Shown here: one piece after another, positions 54,527-64,000 of the stretch | How the letters are laid out: the number at the start of each line of letters is the position of its first letter | Position numbering within the stretch: position 1 is the first letter of the stretch | Made by a program: the position numbers and the translations under genes | DNA from: Paenibacillus sp. L3-i20 | GTDB lineage: Bacteria > Bacillota > Bacilli > Paenibacillales > Paenibacillaceae | NCBI RefSeq assembly: GCF_022180385.2 | Contig: NZ_BQME02000001.1 | Span: 1,514,975-1,578,974, forward strand | DNA: 64,000 nucleotides | Reading direction: 5' to 3' | The notes under the pieces: model-generated | The model's database searches: none | Told to the model about the DNA's origin: nothing | Seen by the model: only the letters and a program-made list of their open reading frames with translations

Positions 54527-54665
54527 GCACACAGCACGAACAAGATAGGTATTTCACCACATTATTTCACAATCCAATATGAATAAAAGTGAACCAATGG
54601 GTAATTGTGGAACTGTCAATGCCACTCCTATAATGAAATTATCATCCAGAAAGGGGAGGATCATC

Positions 54666-56375
54666 TTGAATCAAATTGCTACACCAAGTGGACAATCGCC
54701 GCCCAAAACGGTGCGCACCAACCCTCTAAAGAAGCTTGCTAGAGATCCTATTCTTCTCGCAACGATTATCTTCGTCATTGTTTCGTTGTTCATATTCGTC
54801 GTTTTGCCTTTAATCGAAGTATTAAAGCAAAGTTTTATCGCTTCGGATGGATCATTTACTTTAAAAGCTTACGTAAGTGCTTTCACTTCTACGTCCAACT
54901 TCACAGCAATTACAAACACGCTGCTACTGGCTACAATTGTAGGTGTGCTTGCAACATTGATTGGATTTATGTTTGCTTACGCCGGTGCTTATATCCGTCT
55001 TCCCGGTAAGAAGCTGTTCAATCTCATTGCAATGCTTCCGATTATTTCGCCGCCATTCGCAGTTGCGCTCTCTACCATACTCCTCTTTGGCAGTCGCGGA
55101 TTAATCTCTCATGACTTGCTTGGAATTGATAGCGCTAACATTTACGGATTAAAGGGTTTGATCTTCGTTCAAACGTTATCTTTCTTCCCAATAGCCTATC
55201 TACTACTTAATGGTGTTATGAGATCCATTGACCCTTCTATTGAGGAAGCAGCACGTAACCTTGGAGCATCTCGCTGGAATACGTTCTCCAAAGTAACATT
55301 ACCTCTTGTGAAGCCAGCCATCTCCAACGCTTTCCTGCTTGTCTTCATCAAGTCGATTGCCGATTTCGGTAATCCGATTACAATCGGCGGTGACTACACA
55401 ACGCTCGCTACACAAATTTACTTACAGGCAATCGGCAACTACGATATGCAAGGTGCAGCAGCGATGGCTGTTATCCTGCTCGATATCTCTATCATCTTGT
55501 TCATCATCTCTAAATACTATTTGGAGAAAAAAACATTTATCACGGTGACGGGCAAGTCATCTCGTGATCGCGTATTGATCGGCGAGCGTCATATTGCCCT
55601 GCCAATTTCAATCTTTTGTTTAAGCATCTCTACAATCGTACTTCTACTGTACGCTCTTATCCCGCTCGGCTCGTTCGTTAAGCTCTGGGGTATCGACTAC
55701 AGCTTTACATTTGATCACTATATTTATGCCTTCGAGATAGGCAAAAAAGCTTTGTTAGACACAACAGTTTTATCATTAATAGCAATGCCAATTACTGGGG
55801 TACTGGGTATGATTATCGCATACTTGCTCGTTCGGAAGAAGTTTTTCGGTAAAACGTTTATCGACTTCACGACGATGTTAAGCATTGGTGTTCCCGGAAC
55901 GGTTATCGGAATCGGATTTGTTCTAGCTTTTAACTCTGCTCCACTTGCCCTTACCGGTACAGCAGCGATTCTAGTAATCGCCTTCGTTTCACGAAGCTTG
56001 CCCGTAGGGATCAAAGCAGGACAAAACTCCTTACGTCAAATTGATCCAAGTATCGAAGAAGCTGCAATGAACCTTGGCGCTAACTCATTCAAAGTGTTCA
56101 CAAGCGTGACACTGCCCTTGATCAAAACGGCATTTTTCGGTGGTCTCGTCTATTCCTTCATTAAAAGTATGACATCGATGAGCGCTATTATTTTCTTAAT
56201 ATCAGCTAAGTACAAGCTGCTTACGATTTCTATTTTGGATCAAGTGGAATCTGGTAAGTTTGGTGCAGCTTCTGCATTCTCTACCATCCTTGTCATTATC
56301 GTATATATCGTCATCTTCTTCCTATATCGTTTGATCGCTCTACTCGGAGTGAAGAAAAAGGACATATCGATGTAA
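54666..56375 (+). CDS. ABC importer permease, fused two-domain (FbpB/AfuB-like)
   Basis: The protein of about 569 residues has two BPD_transp_1 domains in tandem, each with six or so membrane helices and an EAA loop: first SIEEAARNLGASRWNTFSKV, second SIEEAAMNLGANSFKVFTSV. This fused layout is typical of ferric-iron (FbpB) and sugar-phosphate (AfuB) importers. The longer frame opens at 54579, but AGGGGAGGATCATC places the start at the TTG at 54666. The first of three plus-strand genes, it diverges from the PTS operon, so substrate may be an organic phosphate or sugar-like compound rather than iron. Confidence 0.87.
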   Translation: MNQIATPSGQSPPKTVRTNPLKKLARDPILLATIIFVIVSLFIFVVLPLIEVLKQSFIASDGSFTLKAYVSAFTSTSNFTAITNTLLLATIVGVLATLIGFMFAYAGAYIRLPGKKLFNLIAMLPIISPPFAVALSTILLFGSRGLISHDLLGIDSANIYGLKGLIFVQTLSFFPIAYLLLNGVMRSIDPSIEEAARNLGASRWNTFSKVTLPLVKPAISNAFLLVFIKSIADFGNPITIGGDYTTLATQIYLQAIGNYDMQGAAAMAVILLDISIILFIISKYYLEKKTFITVTGKSSRDRVLIGERHIALPISIFCLSISTIVLLLYALIPLGSFVKLWGIDYSFTFDHYIYAFEIGKKALLDTTVLSLIAMPITGVLGMIIAYLLVRKKFFGKTFIDFTTMLSIGVPGTVIGIGFVLAFNSAPLALTGTAAILVIAFVSRSLPVGIKAGQNSLRQIDPSIEEAAMNLGANSFKVFTSVTLPLIKTAFFGGLVYSFIKSMTSMSAIIFLISAKYKLLTISILDQVESGKFGAASAFSTILVIIVYIVIFFLYRLIALLGVKKKDISM

Positions 56376-56412
56376 TTGAAACTAGCCAAAACGAAGGGTT
56401 GGAGGGCGACAT

Positions 56413-57486
56413 ATGAGCTTCAAATCAGTTACATTACAGGGTGTTACCAAAACATTTGAGGACCAGAACAAAAAAACGGTACATGCCGTTGCAGACGTTA
56501 ACTTAACTATTAATGAGGGTGAGTTCGCTACTTTGCTCGGTCCATCCGGCTGTGGTAAAACGACAATGCTACGCATGATCGCTGGATTCGAGGAAATTAC
56601 GGAAGGCACTATATTGTTCGGAGATGACCCTATCAACGACTTGCCCCCTAATAAAAGGGATTGTACGATGGTGTTTCAATCATACGCCCTATTTCCTCAC
56701 TTGAACGTATTCGACAATGTCGCTTATGGACTCAAGTTAAAGAAGATGACGAAGTCGCAAATCGCAATCAAAGTAGATGAAGTACTGAGCGTTATGAATC
56801 TTGGTGAGCATACATTCCGTATGCCAAATCAATTGTCAGGCGGTCAGCAGCAACGTGTCGCACTCGCTCGCGCACTTGTAATGGAGCCAAGCGTACTGCT
56901 CTTCGATGAGCCTTTATCCAACCTAGACGCGAAACTTCGCCTCTTGATGCGCGATGAAATTCGCCGTATTCAGAAGATGATCGGTATTACGGCCGTCTAC
57001 GTTACACATGACCAAGGCGAGGCACTGAGCATGAGCGACAAAATTATAGTCATGAACAAAGGACATGTCGAGCAGATCGGTACGGCACAAGAAATTTATC
57101 AGAAGCCACGTACAAAGTTTGTCGCTGACTTCATTGGTACGGCCACCTTCTTAGAAGGCACTGTCATCTCTCATCAGGGGAATACATTTCAGGTCAAAAC
57201 TGCAGCTAGCATATTTAATACAAAGGCAATTGAGGACGTTGTCGTTGGTGATACCGTGAGCATCGTGCTACGCCCCGAGTCTATTCGATTCACAGAGCGT
57301 TCGACACATGTTGCTTCCGTTACAAAAAGTGTATTTATGGGTCAATATCAGGAATACGAGGTCAATTTCGGTGGCCAATTGCTGCAGATTACCGTTATGG
57401 ACCCTCTAAGCCATAAGATTTATGAAGTTGGGAACATGGCCTATCTGGAATTCCCAGAAGAATCACTGCATGTAGTTAAACGATAA
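56413..57486 (+). CDS. ABC importer ATP-binding protein (FbpC/AfuC-like)
   Basis: This 357-residue ATPase of the CUT/FbpC type has Walker A LLGPSGCGKTTMLRMIAGFE, Q-loop VFQSYALFPH, signature LSGGQQQRVALARAL, Walker B LLFDEPLSNLD and the His switch VYVTHDQGEA. A TOBE-like C-terminal domain (about 285-357, IVLRPESIRF) is the usual regulatory part. It follows the permease by 37 bp with its own AGGGCGAC ribosome site, and precedes the binding protein by 12 bp. Confidence 0.93.
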   Translation: MSFKSVTLQGVTKTFEDQNKKTVHAVADVNLTINEGEFATLLGPSGCGKTTMLRMIAGFEEITEGTILFGDDPINDLPPNKRDCTMVFQSYALFPHLNVFDNVAYGLKLKKMTKSQIAIKVDEVLSVMNLGEHTFRMPNQLSGGQQQRVALARALVMEPSVLLFDEPLSNLDAKLRLLMRDEIRRIQKMIGITAVYVTHDQGEALSMSDKIIVMNKGHVEQIGTAQEIYQKPRTKFVADFIGTATFLEGTVISHQGNTFQVKTAASIFNTKAIEDVVVGDTVSIVLRPESIRFTERSTHVASVTKSVFMGQYQEYEVNFGGQLLQITVMDPLSHKIYEVGNMAYLEFPEESLHVVKR

Positions 57487-57498
57487 GGAGGGTTCAAG

Positions 57499-58533
57499 AT
57501 GAAGGGATGGTCAACGTTTAAAGCGGTAATCGCAGTAACATTAGTCACGTCACTCCTGCTGACAGGCTGTGGAGGCAAGAAGAGTGCCGCCGACGATACG
57601 CCGAAAAGTTTAACGATGTATATCGGGGTAGTCGAAGAACAAGCTTTGCAAATTGCGAAGCAATTCGAGAAGGACACTGGCATAAAAGTAGAATTCGTCC
57701 GGATGAGTGGCGGTGAGATCTTAGGTCGTATACGCGCAGAAAAGGACAATCCGAAAGCAAGCGTATGGTATGGCGGCCCTGCCGACTCCATGATTGCAGC
57801 GAAGGAAGAAAACTTGCTAGAGCCGTACAAATCCAAAAACGCAGAAAACATCGCACCTAACTTCAAGGATGATGAAGGTTATTGGACAGGTATTTACCAA
57901 GGTTACCTCGGCTTTGTCGTTGACGGCCGTTACTTGAAGGAGCGCAACGTAGAAATACCGAAATCATGGGATGACCTTCTTAAACCAGAATTTAAAGGAC
58001 AAATTATTGTAGCTAACCCTGGTTCATCAGGAACTGCTTACGCCCTGCTGTATACATTAATTAAACTTAGAGGCGAAGAAGCAGGTCTTGCGTATATGAA
58101 GCAGCTAGATAAACAAATTAAACAATACACAAAATCCGGATCAGCTCCTGCTAAGTCAGCAGCACTTGGTGAAGCCGCAATCGGCATCACATTTATCCAT
58201 AACGGGATTCGTCTACAGAAGGAAGGCTTTGCAAACGTCGAGCTATCTACCCCAACTGACGGTACTGGCTTTGAAGTTGGGGCTGTCTCTATCATCAAAG
58301 GTGGACCAGAGATGAAAGCAGCTCAAATTTTCGTTGATTGGGCACTAACAAAAGAAGTTCAAGAAATTGGTCAACAACATGGCTCGTTCCAGTTCTTGAC
58401 GAATCCGGATGCAAAGATGCCTGAGGAAGCAGTTCCATTCAAAGATACGAAGCTAATCGACTATGATCTTGATTGGGCAGGCAAAAACCGTGAACGTCTT
58501 GTAGAGGCGTGGGATAAAACGATTAAGGAATAA
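57499..58533 (+). CDS. ABC importer substrate-binding lipoprotein (FbpA/AfuA-like)
   Basis: This 344-residue extracytoplasmic binding protein has the signal sequence AVIAVTLVTSLLLTGCGGKK with lipobox LTGC. The periplasmic-binding-protein type 2 fold shows LTMYIGVVEEQALQIAKQFE, VWYGGPADSMIAAKEENLL and IPKSWDDLLKPEFKGQIIVANP. The typical two-Tyr iron motif of FbpA is not evident: the corresponding region reads ITFIHNGIRLQKEG. That favours a non-iron substrate such as a sugar phosphate or phosphonate, as for AfuA of Actinobacillus. A strong terminator follows at 58583. Confidence 0.88.
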   Translation: MKGWSTFKAVIAVTLVTSLLLTGCGGKKSAADDTPKSLTMYIGVVEEQALQIAKQFEKDTGIKVEFVRMSGGEILGRIRAEKDNPKASVWYGGPADSMIAAKEENLLEPYKSKNAENIAPNFKDDEGYWTGIYQGYLGFVVDGRYLKERNVEIPKSWDDLLKPEFKGQIIVANPGSSGTAYALLYTLIKLRGEEAGLAYMKQLDKQIKQYTKSGSAPAKSAALGEAAIGITFIHNGIRLQKEGFANVELSTPTDGTGFEVGAVSIIKGGPEMKAAQIFVDWALTKEVQEIGQQHGSFQFLTNPDAKMPEEAVPFKDTKLIDYDLDWAGKNRERLVEAWDKTIKE

Positions 58534-58754: not shown

Positions 58755-59435
58755 TTATTGCGCATAGTCCCCTGAATAGTTAATGAGCGATGCATCATGC
58801 ACACCGTCAATTTCGCTAATGGTCTGAACAAATGCTGTATTGTCGTCACGCAGCATAATCTCAACCGTTAGTTCAGTGAAATCTTTACGTACTGTCTTGG
58901 ACTTCAACTTACTATTTAACTTACGCAATTGCACACGCAGCTCATCACTGGCTGTATCTGTATGACGTACGATTAGGAGATAGGCTTGCTCCTTCAGCTT
59001 GCGTCTTGATAGCCACGCTAGCGTCAAACCAATAATAATAGAACCGCCAAGAGCTAGTGGATACATCTTCGCTCCACTAGCAATTCCCGCTGAAATTGCC
59101 CAGAACATATAAACGATATCGAGAGGGTCCTTTACCGCTGTTCTAAACCGCACAATACTTAGTGCTCCGACCATACCAAGCGAAAGAACGATGTTCGTAC
59201 TAATTGTCATAATAATAAGGGCGGTTATCATCGTCATTAGGACGAACGATACATTATAGTTATAGCTGTATACGACACCACGAAATGTCTTGCGATAGAT
59301 CCAATAGATAAACATCCCTATAATAAACGAACTAAATAATCCTAGAATCATATCTACATACGAAACGCTGCGAAATGCCTCAAGATGAAGAACGCTTTGT
59401 TTAATAATATCCCGAAAATTAGTTGTGTCTCCCAT
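58755..59435 (-). CDS. DUF4956 family membrane protein
   Basis: This 226-residue protein has four membrane helices in its first 145 residues (YVDMILGLFSSFIIGMFIYW; FVLMTMITALIIMTISTNIV; and the conserved LSLGMVGALSIVRFRTAVKD with charged residues inside a hydrophobic stretch). A cytoplasmic alpha/beta tail follows (about 150-226, LIVRHTDTASDELRVQL and a ferredoxin-like end). The family is frequently encoded next to VTC-domain and CotH proteins, as here, but its function is not established. An inorganic polyphosphate or phosphoryl-transfer system at the membrane has been suggested by that association only. Last gene of the Pel-like locus. Confidence 0.85.
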   Translation of the reverse strand: MGDTTNFRDIIKQSVLHLEAFRSVSYVDMILGLFSSFIIGMFIYWIYRKTFRGVVYSYNYNVSFVLMTMITALIIMTISTNIVLSLGMVGALSIVRFRTAVKDPLDIVYMFWAISAGIASGAKMYPLALGGSIIIGLTLAWLSRRKLKEQAYLLIVRHTDTASDELRVQLRKLNSKLKSKTVRKDFTELTVEIMLRDDNTAFVQTISEIDGVHDASLINYSGDYAQ

Positions 59436-59453: not shown

Positions 59454-60164
59454 CTATTCTTTATAATGTTTCAAGTTAACTTCACGACAAATAACATATT
59501 TGGATATAGAAGAACGAATATGATTATCCGGCCTCACAATATTTCGTACATGATTGGGTAGGAATGTATCATATTTCACTTCTAATATAGTCTGTGGAGA
59601 AGGGATGGCCTCCTCCAGCACCAAGCTAGGATCAAACAAATCGAACGTATTGGTGCCAGAGGACAGCTTTTTGTCGAACGTTATTCTAACGTTACCAAAC
59701 TCGTAAATATACGCTGCACGTAAGTAATCTACAATGGCCGTCGGCCGGAAACCGCGATGCTCGAGCGCGGAGTGGAACTCCCTAAGTAATAGAGAGTCCT
59801 TATATGCCAAGCACCTATAATCACCTTGCACAATAGCATCATATTCTTCTCTACTGATACGTGCAGATTCCTTGCAAACAAACTCCCCAAACTTGCTCTT
59901 GCGCTCCACAGAGATTACAGAATCGTTTCCGTTATACGTGCGGATACGATACTTCTCCCTTATAAATACGCCATTGTTCTTATCGTGCAAAGCATTGTCA
60001 TTTGGACCGTCAAAGTACAAGCTTCGAATACAATACCCTTCACTGCTAATAGAATGTCGATCCATCATTAGCATGGAAGATACCCGATGATGCAAGGACA
60101 TGTAATCATGTATGTGCAAGTAGTATTTATGCTCCGTTCTAAATTTCCTGCCTTGAAATCCCAA
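59454..60164 (-). CDS. VTC-domain (polyphosphate polymerase-like) protein
   Basis: This 236-residue protein consists almost wholly of a VTC catalytic domain, a tunnel-shaped beta barrel of the triphosphate-tunnel enzyme superfamily. Barrel-lining basic and acidic residues are visible: FRTEHKYYLH, CIRSLYFDGPNDNAL, FIREKYRIRTYN, ISVERKSKFGEFVCKESARI, AIVDYLRAAYIYEFGNVRITFD and ILEVKYDTFLP. In yeast VTC4 the domain makes polyphosphate from ATP; bacterial stand-alone members are mostly untested. It starts one base before the end of the gap to the PelG-CotH gene, so the genes are co-translated. No SPX domain is present. Confidence 0.87.
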   Translation of the reverse strand: MGFQGRKFRTEHKYYLHIHDYMSLHHRVSSMLMMDRHSISSEGYCIRSLYFDGPNDNALHDKNNGVFIREKYRIRTYNGNDSVISVERKSKFGEFVCKESARISREEYDAIVQGDYRCLAYKDSLLLREFHSALEHRGFRPTAIVDYLRAAYIYEFGNVRITFDKKLSSGTNTFDLFDPSLVLEEAIPSPQTILEVKYDTFLPNHVRNIVRPDNHIRSSISKYVICREVNLKHYKE

Positions 60165-60165
60165 T

Positions 60166-63100
60166 TTATTGCACCTCTAATTCTCTTATGCTGGAATGAA
60201 CTTCATCTTCAACATCAAGATAGTAGTTAAATGAACCTTGCTCGTTGCCGTGGCTGTCTCGTGCAACAACCCTCCAATAATAAATTCCTGACTTAAGCCC
60301 TTCCACTTCTAATTTATTCATCTTTACATTTGTTTCTGTTTTGACAAGGTTCTGAAGTTGTGGATCTCTCGCCAAAATTACGTCATAAACGATATCATCT
60401 CCCTGGATATCATAAGAGAGTCCCCAACTTAATATTGTTTTTCCTTTTTCTTGAACAACATCATGTTGATAAAATGGTTTTGGATTTTCAAGATCCGCTA
60501 AAAATCTTTCCATGCCGCGTTTTGGTGTTTCTCTTAACACTTGCAATTCATTTTGAAATTGCGTATTCAAATTCGGCAGGAATCGAATGTCCGGATCTCT
60601 ATATAAGAATGGTTCTACCGTCTTCTCATACTGTTTGATTAATTCCGAAATTTTTTCTTCGTTAATGCTAGCACTTAGTTCTTTTACTTTCGCTTTTAGC
60701 TGCTCCACATGTTCTGGGTTTCTGAAATATCGATTATGCAGAACGGAATCCCAATAGTTGCTAATTCCATTTTGGAAACTACGAATACTAGATTTCCGAC
60801 GCTGCAGCTCCCAACCACCATCGTAGTCCCAAGGCAATATGTACCATTTATCCGAATTCAATGGGGAATACAAATAAAAATTGTTTGCATCCGTGTCCAT
60901 ATTGTCCATTAGTATATTTGAGGCTGTCCATGTTAAAAAATTATCTAAATCAAAGTGCTTCTCCATCACATCTTTTATCGATAAGCGCATATTGTTAACA
61001 TCATCAAGCATGCGTATAAGCTTATCGTGCTCTTCTCTACCTTTAATCTCTAATATCGTTTGAAAAGCATCCTTGTCGTAAGTAGGATCATCATGTGATT
61101 TGATGAGTTCAGGATATCGTCTATATTCAAAAAACGTTACCTTATATAAATAACCATTCGGATCGAGCATATGTGTTTTCATAAATCTTTTGTTAGGCTG
61201 CTCTACATGGGTGTATAACCCGTAATCCTCGAAAGCTGCTTTACTGTTGCCTTCTGATAAGTCCTTCACATACATATGTACAAATTGGGTTCGCAAGCTT
61301 GTCATATTAGGGATCGTTTCAAATAAGTCAAAGCTTAGTTTATTTCTGATCCGAGTTAAATCGAGCATATGTTTATTCAAATTCAAAGTACTTTGATCCA
61401 TCCATAAGCCTGCTTCATCGTTAAGCTTGATCCGATATGACTTCTGCGGCAACGTCCAAGCTGTTCTACCTCGTATCGTTATAGTTGCATTTGCTTGATC
61501 CGTTCCATAGCCAAAATAACCTTGCTTAGGCCCCACACCATCACTTAACCCTTCTTGTACAATAACACCTAGCTTGCTTTCATCTTCCCGGCTTGGTAAA
61601 CGATTTAGCCCATACCAATTTAATGGGCTATTCGCCTCCTTGCTACTTGGCAGTATCGTTACATACAGGGTCTTTAATGAAGCATTATCATCCCGTTCAT
61701 ATAATCTCTTGTCTTCAACTAGCTTTGTTGATGGAGTCGTTGTTGATAATTGAGGTGCGTTTTTCACTTCTTTTATGTTAGCCGTATTGGAACTACTAGT
61801 AGTCGTCTCCGTACAAGCTGATAACACAAGCGTCATAAGCAGAATTACCGATACAACTGTTCCTGGTTTAGTGAAAAAAGATTTGCCCTTCGTTTGTTTA
61901 CTTTGACTAAGTGGTTGTGAACAGAACGTAAAGTAGTCTATATTGCGAAGCACATACAGCAATCGAGCTATAACAACCCCGAGCGAAATAAATGAAGCAA
62001 TAAACATACCAAGTCCGTCATAATTAAGCATCATCATCCAATAAGAAAACACTATGTTTAATAGGACAAATAATCCACCGATAGCGACGACACCTTTGCG
62101 ATCATCAAAATACATAAGAACATGAATAAGAACAAACATAGTAATAAAGAGAAAATAAGAAAGAACTAGTAGGTTATACAAATCAAGCTGGGCCATCGTA
62201 AAACCGATCTTTGGAAGAAACTTAATTCCAAGCGCAATAGCCATAACCGTAAACATTAGTTGAACCTCCATTAGGAGGCTAATTTGCTTTACTAACGTAT
62301 TTTGCATATTTTTCTTTGCTGTTCGGATATCCTGAATCGTACCCCCATTAATAATGTGCAAATAATAGGTGCGAAACTTTTCATAAAACGCCGTTTCAAC
62401 GAATACTACAAATGTGACGAGTGTAGGCATAACTGATAAAAAAGCAAAAAACACAGGTAAATCATAATAAGGCATTACTAAAAAGCGATTCGCTACCAGC
62501 ACTCCATCAGGACCAAGCCAATAAACGAAGTTGTGTAAGTAAACGCCAGAATAAACAAAACAGCCTGCGAAAAATAACGAGCTGAATTTTTTGAAGTATG
62601 TAACAAACGAAAATAAATAGTGACGATTTGCTCTCGGAAACTTTTGTTCAAAATGGTGGAAGGATAATACTGCGATTATAAAAAAGCCAATATCAATACC
62701 AAACAATGCTGCTGATGTTGCCTTAAGATCGGTTAATAAAAATAATAGCCATCCACTAACGAGTGCAGCTGATGTTCCTATAATGAATCCACGTACGATT
62801 CGAATATAATCTTTGAGTGCAGATAGAAACACACCCTGCAGCCAAATGACAATGAGCTCCATAAAAAATAAATAAGCAGCAAACTTATAGCTTATATCAG
62901 CATCGACTTCCTTAATGAATATCCATGCAACAATGGCACAGAGAGGCAGCATGATAACAAGTGCCCCATAAAAGGATGACATCAGTCGATCGTATTTCTT
63001 TTCATAAATCATATCAGCGACATATCTGGTCAATACAATGGATATCCCGCTTGTGCAAATAATTGAAAATACGAAACAATAGGATACGGTTGCAATATAA

Positions 63101-63282
63101 AGCTCCCATTCAATATAACTGTCACTGTAATTATTCATAATTCGTTGTAGTGCAATGATTAGAAACATACATAAGATCATTGGCCCAACGGTTGTCAGTG
63201 AAGAATAAGCATATGCTTTAACATTATTAATGAGTCCTTGCTCTCGAAATAGCTTTCTTAACTCGAAGCCGATTCCCGCCAT
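60166..63282 (-). CDS. PelG-type exopolysaccharide transporter fused to a CotH kinase domain
   Basis: This is a 1038-residue two-part protein. Residues 1 to about 455 are PelG: MAGIGFELRKLFREQGLINN and about twelve membrane helices, the inner-membrane exporter of the Pel polysaccharide. After a Lys/Ser linker, VVSVILLMTLVLSACTETT (near residue 490) has the shape of a lipoprotein signal with lipobox but is now internal. A CotH kinase-like domain follows (about 520-950), with RIKLNDEAG, the NNFYLYSP segment and the metal-site motif PWDYDGGWEL. A fibronectin-III-like end (about 955-1038, IYYWRVVARDSHG) closes it. The usual form is two separate genes. The frame is open throughout with no sign of a joining frameshift, so this looks like a real fusion or a lost intergenic stop. 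Confidence 0.87.
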   Translation of the reverse strand: MAGIGFELRKLFREQGLINNVKAYAYSSLTTVGPMILCMFLIIALQRIMNNYSDSYIEWELYIATVSYCFVFSIICTSGISIVLTRYVADMIYEKKYDRLMSSFYGALVIMLPLCAIVAWIFIKEVDADISYKFAAYLFFMELIVIWLQGVFLSALKDYIRIVRGFIIGTSAALVSGWLLFLLTDLKATSAALFGIDIGFFIIAVLSFHHFEQKFPRANRHYLFSFVTYFKKFSSLFFAGCFVYSGVYLHNFVYWLGPDGVLVANRFLVMPYYDLPVFFAFLSVMPTLVTFVVFVETAFYEKFRTYYLHIINGGTIQDIRTAKKNMQNTLVKQISLLMEVQLMFTVMAIALGIKFLPKIGFTMAQLDLYNLLVLSYFLFITMFVLIHVLMYFDDRKGVVAIGGLFVLLNIVFSYWMMMLNYDGLGMFIASFISLGVVIARLLYVLRNIDYFTFCSQPLSQSKQTKGKSFFTKPGTVVSVILLMTLVLSACTETTTSSSNTANIKEVKNAPQLSTTTPSTKLVEDKRLYERDDNASLKTLYVTILPSSKEANSPLNWYGLNRLPSREDESKLGVIVQEGLSDGVGPKQGYFGYGTDQANATITIRGRTAWTLPQKSYRIKLNDEAGLWMDQSTLNLNKHMLDLTRIRNKLSFDLFETIPNMTSLRTQFVHMYVKDLSEGNSKAAFEDYGLYTHVEQPNKRFMKTHMLDPNGYLYKVTFFEYRRYPELIKSHDDPTYDKDAFQTILEIKGREEHDKLIRMLDDVNNMRLSIKDVMEKHFDLDNFLTWTASNILMDNMDTDANNFYLYSPLNSDKWYILPWDYDGGWELQRRKSSIRSFQNGISNYWDSVLHNRYFRNPEHVEQLKAKVKELSASINEEKISELIKQYEKTVEPFLYRDPDIRFLPNLNTQFQNELQVLRETPKRGMERFLADLENPKPFYQHDVVQEKGKTILSWGLSYDIQGDDIVYDVILARDPQLQNLVKTETNVKMNKLEVEGLKSGIYYWRVVARDSHGNEQGSFNYYLDVEDEVHSSIRELEVQ

Positions 63283-64000
63283 TGCTGTCCACCTCCTAAC
63301 GATTGATACAATGCGCGATAGCTTTCAATAACATCCTTTTGGCGATAATACTTCTGAACGCGAAGAAAAGCATTACGCCCCATCTCCATTCGCAATTGTT
63401 GATCTTTACATAGTTGAATGGCTGCCAGTGCAAGTTTTTCGTAATGCATGACTGGTGCGATCAACCCAGCGGGACCAATACCATCTTCTATCCCTTCAAG
63501 CAGTTCCTTACAGCTTCCAACATTCGTAGACACGAATGGCTTAGAACTCGCCATACCTTCCAATATCGCAAGTGGTTGTCCTTCACTGATACTTGTCAGC
63601 ATTAATAGATCCATCCGGCCCAAATACTCTTTCACCTGAATAGAACCCGTGAAAGTTACATCCTCTAACGACAATGTTTCTACTAATTGCAAACATTCCT
63701 CATAGTACTGCTCGTCCTCTTCATAAGGACCCATAATGCAGAATTCAGCTTGTGGTATTTCACGTTTTATAAGCGCAAAGCTCTGCAACATCGTCTTAAT
63801 GTCCTTAATAGGAACTACACGTACAATAGCACCAATACGAATGACAGTATCATTTTTATTAACTGTTTCTATGTTGACGTATTCTGCGCTGTGCACGCCG
63901 TTAGGGATAACCTTGATCTTGTTGATATCGCAACCCAGCTCAACTTGAATTTCTTTGTTTCTATTAAATAATGTAATAATCTGATCGGATTCTTGATAGG
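63258..64000 (-). CDS. pelF: PelF-type glycosyltransferase, C-terminal part (gene continues past window)
   Basis: This GT4-family (GT-B) glycosyltransferase is PelF, which polymerises the Pel polysaccharide from UDP-sugar in the cytoplasm. Only the C-terminal ~247 residues are inside the window; the frame is open to the right edge (YQESDQIITLFNRNKEIQ, then KVIPNGVHSAEYVN). Family marks are IRIGAIVRVVPIKDIKTMLQ, FCIMGPYEEDEQYYEEC, LLMLTSISEGQPLAILEGMA (the EGQPLAxLE nucleotide-sugar motif) and FVSTNVGSCKELLEG. A GTG at 63896 could look like a start but is internal. It overlaps PelG-CotH by 25 bases. Other pel genes are expected to the right. Confidence 0.9.
   Translation of the reverse strand, partial: YQESDQIITLFNRNKEIQVELGCDINKIKVIPNGVHSAEYVNIETVNKNDTVIRIGAIVRVVPIKDIKTMLQSFALIKREIPQAEFCIMGPYEEDEQYYEECLQLVETLSLEDVTFTGSIQVKEYLGRMDLLMLTSISEGQPLAILEGMASSKPFVSTNVGSCKELLEGIEDGIGPAGLIAPVMHYEKLALAAIQLCKDQQLRMEMGRNAFLRVQKYYRQKDVIESYRALYQSLGGGQQWRESASS

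Follow-up and report, generated by a model that had tools for sequence, protein, structure and literature searches.

In a 64,000-nucleotide stretch of the Paenibacillus sp. L3-i20 genome (hereafter, the window), the Pel exporter protein PelG and a CotH-type kinase were found to be encoded by a single open reading frame (ORF). This ORF runs on the minus strand from 63282 to 60166, starts with ATG and specifies 1038 residues with zero internal stops. Such PelG-CotH fusions have evolved repeatedly as a variant of the Pel export machinery, and the fusion is a strong candidate for a polyprotein that is processed at an internal lipoprotein signal. By Pfam analysis, PelG (PF16933) was detected at residues 1-453 (E 1e-125, 420.5 bits, profile positions 1-452 of 452) and CotH (PF08757) at residues 601-918 (E 3e-66), with zero family matches for the fused protein in NCBIfam. 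The proposal of a first-pass annotation, that a full PelG of ~455 residues and a CotH-type kinase share one open frame, was thus confirmed.

Table 1. Window positions of the parts of the PelG-CotH fusion and of the adjoining pel operon genes.
Feature	Position	Strand	Basis
PelG domain, residues 1-456, MOP/MATE-fold polysaccharide exporter	61915..63282	-	PF16933, 12 helices in AlphaFold2 model, Foldseek
Short basic linker, residues 457-472, n-region of internal signal, predicted cytoplasmic	61867..61914	-	Charge, K472, pLDDT
Putative internal lipoprotein signal, residues 473-490: hydrophobic segment and lipobox LSAC	61813..61866	-	Cys conservation, lipobox
Variable Ser/Thr-rich tether, residues 491-520	61723..61812	-	24.9 changes per column; low pLDDT
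CotH kinase domain (predicted), residues 521-932	60487..61722	-	PF08757, 5jd9 by sequence and fold
C-terminal beta-rich domain, residues 940-1037, FN3-like by weak evidence	60172..60465	-	AlphaFold2 strands
VTC-domain (polyphosphate polymerase-like) gene, next in operon after fusion	59454..60164	-	PF09359
DUF4956 membrane protein gene, last of operon	58755..59435	-	PF16316
pelF glycosyltransferase, 3' part in window	63258..64000	-	PF11997 and glycosyltransferase domains; full gene in L031

Upstream of the fusion are pelF, pelADA, pelE and an SDR-PelD gene, and downstream are the VTC and DUF4956 genes; pelF continues to about 64700 in the genome and shares 25 bases with the fusion ORF. The order SDR-PelD, PelE, PelADA, PelF, PelG, CotH, VTC, DUF4956 was observed in 22/22 named fused loci, with the VTC gene directly after the fusion and the DUF4956 gene present in every case (22/22 each). 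The fusion locus is a Gram-positive pel cluster with a CotH-polyphosphate polymerase-DUF4956 accessory set. A scan of the junction detected one promoter-like site, on the opposite strand (2.3 expected by shuffling), and two terminator-like stems compared to 0.2 expected by shuffling, one on the gene's strand within PelG codons (3 G-C pairs) and the other on the opposite strand; neither result was given weight.

Several neighboring features were also recorded. The pel operon is preceded, in the same orientation, by a gene for a right-handed beta-helix protein (L031:12885-15752, about 69910-72777 in window numbering and outside the window). A similar beta-helix sequence was found in 9/22 named fused loci (8 upstream; downstream in L036) and 0/44 separate loci, with most loci ending near there. 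In PelD (L031:10417-12591), an epimerase domain at the N-terminus and a weak match to GAF were detected, and the RETD string towards the end of the protein might be a c-di-GMP I-site (motif RxxD). On the opposite strand and convergent with the pel operon, window positions 54579-58533 encode an ABC permease, an ATPase and a binding lipoprotein that appear iron-uptake-like by eye from the translations.

The fusion was modeled by AlphaFold2 (58 sequences, mean pLDDT 88.7, pTM 0.55). In this model, the PelG half has 12 confident membrane helices before the linker, and therefore its C-terminal end should face the cytoplasm. By Foldseek, the PelG half was related to MATE transporters, WzxE and MurJ (TM by target about 0.45-0.67); by sequence, zero matches to the PDB were detected for this half up to E 1. 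Based on the model and its location in the pel operon, the PelG half is predicted to be a Pel exporter with a 12-helix MOP-superfamily fold. The model fell below pLDDT 50 at residues 459-472 and 489-516, with a low-confidence 16-residue helix at 473-488, and was confident for the CotH and C-terminal beta-rich domains.

The CotH half was found to be related to B. cereus CotH (5jd9) by sequence (E 8e-12) and by Foldseek (TM 0.81 normalised by target). Hemagglutinin rows below the CotH match in the PDB search (E 0.01 and worse) were taken as chance. Residues D793, N794, D796, N801, D819 and D821 were invariant in 47 Bacillales fusions. Among the distinct fusions, the WD[YN]D motif was present in 52/52 and NxDT..N in 49/52, with both found in the window protein; the three that lack the latter form are a Lachnospiraceae trio (L169, L170 and L171). 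By family, fold and acidic active-site motifs, the CotH half is predicted to be a kinase. The FN3-like end noted in the first-pass annotation is weakly supported: high-pLDDT strands at residues 943-1037 and one PDB match to an FN3 chain (neogenin, E 0.16) are consistent with such a domain, but no Pfam FN3 match was detected in the fused protein up to E 0.1, the best other match (DUF4962) being under its cut-off.

We compared the fusion to PelG and CotH of related bacteria, as had been suggested at the outset. Full-length, stop-free fused frames were detected in 22/99 near genomes (29/99 matched) and in 32/392 genomes drawn from the order (57/392 matched), two sets that overlap and both include the genome of the window. 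After 13 of 79 named loci were left out for having no PelG or no CotH, 66 loci with PelG then CotH remained, of which 22 were fused and 44 separate, including one (L066) with about 2 kb between the two genes. In the other sampled relatives, PelG and CotH genes were separate, nearly always adjacent, or one was found alone. Merging identical proteins reduced 64 fused loci to 49 distinct and 58 split loci to 51 distinct. In the family of genome G807, inferred to be Lachnospiraceae, 20/299 genomes matched; G844, G899 and G1091 (one match each) were left out, and the 17 taken in comprised 3 fused and 14 separate. The total is 52 distinct fused proteins (49 pooled and 3 from this family). An artefact, in which a sequencing error or missing stop merged two genes, had been named as the outcome that would undo the fusion and is in line with the separate genes at 44/66 named loci; however, the 52 distinct fusions come from many assemblies of independent genomes and are grouped by tree, which leaves this explanation a negligible probability and refutes it.

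Among the loci with unusual arrangements, that of G362 (L129) was matched from residue 225 only, with the first ~225 PelG residues out of frame with the rest. Two CotH matches close together were observed in G348 (L124 and L131), where one is fused to PelG, and in G057 (L141), G126 (L134), G248 (L135) and G270 (L136), where neither is fused.

The number of fusion events was estimated from trees that were midpoint-rooted, and some of the changes counted could be losses. L129, counted in the 52 fusions, and L078, with PelG cut by a contig end, were left out of all trees. In a PelG tree of 98 rows, the 47 Bacillales fusions formed one clade (SH-aLRT 99) with the Lachnospiraceae row L055 apart, and zero separate PelG/CotH pairs were found inside this 47-member clade in our sample. 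Trees of 44 chosen rows (17 Lachnospiraceae loci, L055, 22 earlier split rows and 4 Bacillales fusions) gave 3 changes for PelG and 3 for CotH, with well-supported branches forcing three. By this approach, the fusions were placed in three groups, one large Bacillales clade and two in Lachnospiraceae, and about three fusion events would be the simplest account, since the separate state surrounds all three groups.

The junction contains VILLMTLVLSAC (residues 479-490), with the codon of Cys490 at window positions 61815-61813. The lipobox is defined as [LV][ASTVI][GAS]C in PMC8048626, and LSAC of the window protein agrees with this pattern. The cysteine was kept in 52/52 distinct fusions and was preceded by A, G or S (-1 residue) in 52/52, with a strict lipobox in 44/52 and departures in 8/52; a lipoprotein-signal-like segment followed by a Ser/Thr-rich stretch, as described in the first-pass annotation, was indeed present. 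Among the 47 Bacillales fusions, Cys490 was the only invariant column of linker residues 458-520 (columns filled in at least 40 rows), with Leu487 (-3; 44/47), Lys472 (38/47) and Ala489 (34/47) next best. On the PelG tree of these fusions (total length 11.35), Cys490 underwent 0 changes, Leu487 three, Lys472 seven and Ala489 (-1 small residue) nine, compared to means per linker column of 18.7 (residues 458-489) and 24.9 (residues 491-520). An unchanged Cys490 amid a very variable linker is what would be expected where selection maintains a lipobox, and by this comparative approach the lipobox of the fusions was shown to bear the mark of selection.

The fusions have a positive n-region and a short h-region, as in bacterial lipoproteins. 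Over the 15 residues that precede the hydrophobic segment, net charge was at least +2 in 51/52 fusions (median +5), and the basic linker fits the positive-inside rule. A longer and very basic stretch separates PelG from the hydrophobic segment in the Lachnospiraceae trio L169, L170 and L171. The fusion departs from the lipoprotein rule in position: signals of this type are described as N-terminal (PMC8048626), whereas here the signal would be at residues 457-490, after 12 helices. Among 184 distinct ORFs with at least 4 predicted helices across all loci collected, a lipobox pattern after at least 3 helices was detected in 47, and since all 47 are PelG-CotH fusions, the background is the 137 other ORFs, largely from pel loci. 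When scanned with a Gram-positive lipobox pattern, the linker was matched in 47/52 fusions (5/52 missed) and the PelG and CotH halves in 0/52 each; this pattern matched 20/31 separate CotH lipoproteins and missed 11/31.

The junction segment was also compared to the hydrophobic segments of separate CotH proteins, which were sorted into lipoproteins and plain anchors by a lipobox pattern of our own. Median summed hydropathy was 33.9 for the 52 fusions, compared to 33.3 for 31 separate CotH lipoproteins (p 0.82) and 47.7 for 20 separate plain-anchor CotH (p 1e-9), and median segment length was 17, compared to 15 (p 1e-4) and 19.5 (p 2e-5), respectively; these p-values overstate independence, since the sequences are related and the 52 proteins represent about three events. 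The fusion segment resembles a lipoprotein signal more closely than a membrane anchor. An improbable reading of the junction makes the segment a plain 13th membrane helix that keeps the kinase at the outer face, with the lipobox an inert ancestral leftover. The modeled helix at 473-488 and a segment exceeding the typical CotH lipoprotein signal in length agree with this, as do 20/51 distinct separate CotH that have a hydrophobic anchor and no lipobox by our pattern (L098 borderline), which suggest that CotH can work without lipid. A leftover should decay, yet Cys490 is unchanged between columns that average 18.7 and 24.9 changes, and hydropathy is far under that of plain anchors (p 1e-9). The separate CotH without lipobox, moreover, indicate that the lipid is dispensable in places and therefore make it more telling that the fusions have strictly retained it. 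Of the two fates first considered for the junction, a tether or an internal cut, the invariant Cys and signal-like segment favor the cut, with the tether appearing less likely.

Based on these comparisons, we consider it probable that the product of pelG-cotH is a polyprotein in which Lgt lipidates Cys490 and LspA cuts before this residue to give PelG and a lipid-anchored CotH. In this mechanism, pelG and cotH would be translated as one chain, PelG would insert with 12 helices and its C-terminal end in the cytoplasm, and the basic linker with the 17-residue hydrophobic segment would serve as the internal lipoprotein signal that moves the CotH half across the membrane. Lgt would then add diacylglycerol to Cys490, and LspA would cleave between Ala489 and Cys490. 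Cleavage is predicted to yield a PelG of 489 aa (about 56 kDa) that retains the signal helix at its C-terminus, and a CotH kinase of 549 aa (about 64 kDa) held by its lipid anchor. The two would be produced in equal numbers where Pel is exported, a ratio that may be of benefit. CotH could there adjust Pel output or, at the exporter, modify the polymer or a partner. The genome of the window carries Lgt and LspA genes. Points against the cut are the 2 residues by which the segment exceeds separate CotH lipoprotein signals, which bring it closer to an anchor, the 8/52 departures from the strict lipobox, the 5/52 fusions and 11/31 separate lipoproteins missed by the Gram-positive pattern, and that no report of an LspA-cut polytopic precursor was found in the open-licence literature; LspA may not accept such a substrate.

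This extra length would suit an unlikely alternative, in which Lgt modifies Cys490, LspA is inactive on it, and a 13th helix pinned by the lipid keeps the kinase attached to PelG. Lipidation without cleavage would account for the conserved lipobox and for the persistence of a one-chain state in three groups. By contrast, LspA requires prior modification of its substrate by Lgt, such that the Lgt product is its normal substrate (PMC8048626); LspA is encoded in the genome, and the -1 residue beside the cut site is A, G or S in 52/52 fusions. A separate CotH lipoprotein could in principle arise from a second ribosome start within the frame, which we regard as very improbable. An ATG, GTG or TTG was found between PelG and the hydrophobic segment in 26/52 fusions, preceded within 20 bases by a Shine-Dalgarno-like stretch in four (L002, L055, L169 and L171); no such stretch was detected at a pre-segment start in the other 48/52. 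In L169 and L171, the segment is also immediately preceded by an ATG. The window protein has none of these codons between PelG and the segment, and it and 10 others of the 52 are free of them from the PelG end to 10 residues before the Cys; Met483, the only ATG in its segment, would leave 7 residues before Cys490. A second start was thus excluded for the window protein as far as sequence allows and is possible for L002, L055, L169 and L171.

A more far-reaching form of the polyprotein mechanism is possible but doubtful: lipoprotein signals would work inside polytopic proteins, three groups would have independently made an LspA-processed polyprotein, and the released lipid-anchored kinase at the exporter exit would phosphorylate the emerging Pel polymer or a partner and so control output. 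The earlier suggestion that an outer-surface target is modified or displayed during Pel export is a guess. A conserved internal signal after 12 helices, if true, would broaden the set of proteins on which Lgt and LspA act and would escape predictors restricted to N-termini. The fusion would couple Pel export, at a constant ratio, to a surface protein that resembles a kinase, and with it the part played by the CotH-VTC-DUF4956 set of Pel loci, so far unexplained, becomes more testable.

The fused loci have the same gene order as the Gram-positive pelDEADAFG cluster with cotH, polyphosphate polymerase and DUF4956 genes described by Whitfield 2020 (PMC7112168). In that work, cotH is an accessory gene of its own beside the pel genes of streptococci, clostridia and bifidobacteria, whereas here it is fused to pelG; CotH is suggested there as a possible regulator of Pel synthesis through protein phosphorylation (PMC7112168). 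The word 'fusion' is absent from the main text of PMC7112168, in which the sole 'fused' refers to a purification tag, and no published PelG-CotH fusion or internal lipobox was found among the matches listed for the open-licence literature. Queries for precedents yielded no usable match, and PMC6256036 and PMC12281620 proved to be on other subjects. The closest experimental hint of a role for CotH in Pel export is from S. intermedius, in which loss of the separate cotH-like gene SIR_1594 is described to result in less Pel and in a drop in aggregation that is small in buffer and over 50% in sputum medium, with neighboring genes that, according to the authors, may concern phosphate (PMC12345266). 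Similarly to the fusion, SIR_1594 has a CotH domain, a C-terminal domain that its authors call FN3 and a location in a pel cluster; unlike the fusion, it is described as a separate secreted protein (PMC12345266).

B. cereus CotH kinase (5jd9) has its fold and active-site motifs in common with the CotH half and differs from the fusion in being a spore coat protein without an exporter half. The cytochrome b-c1 precursor FbcH of Bradyrhizobium is likewise a polytopic protein followed by an internal signal and is cut into two proteins; unlike the processing proposed for the fusion, this cut is by a non-lipoprotein signal peptidase and is not known to involve lipid. The actinobacterial Rieske protein, in which a helix is inserted by Tat and for which the available text of PMC9360617 mentions no lipobox or cut, differs from the fusion in these respects and is similar in that the final portion of a polytopic chain is served by an export signal (a Tat motif) located internally (PMC9360617).
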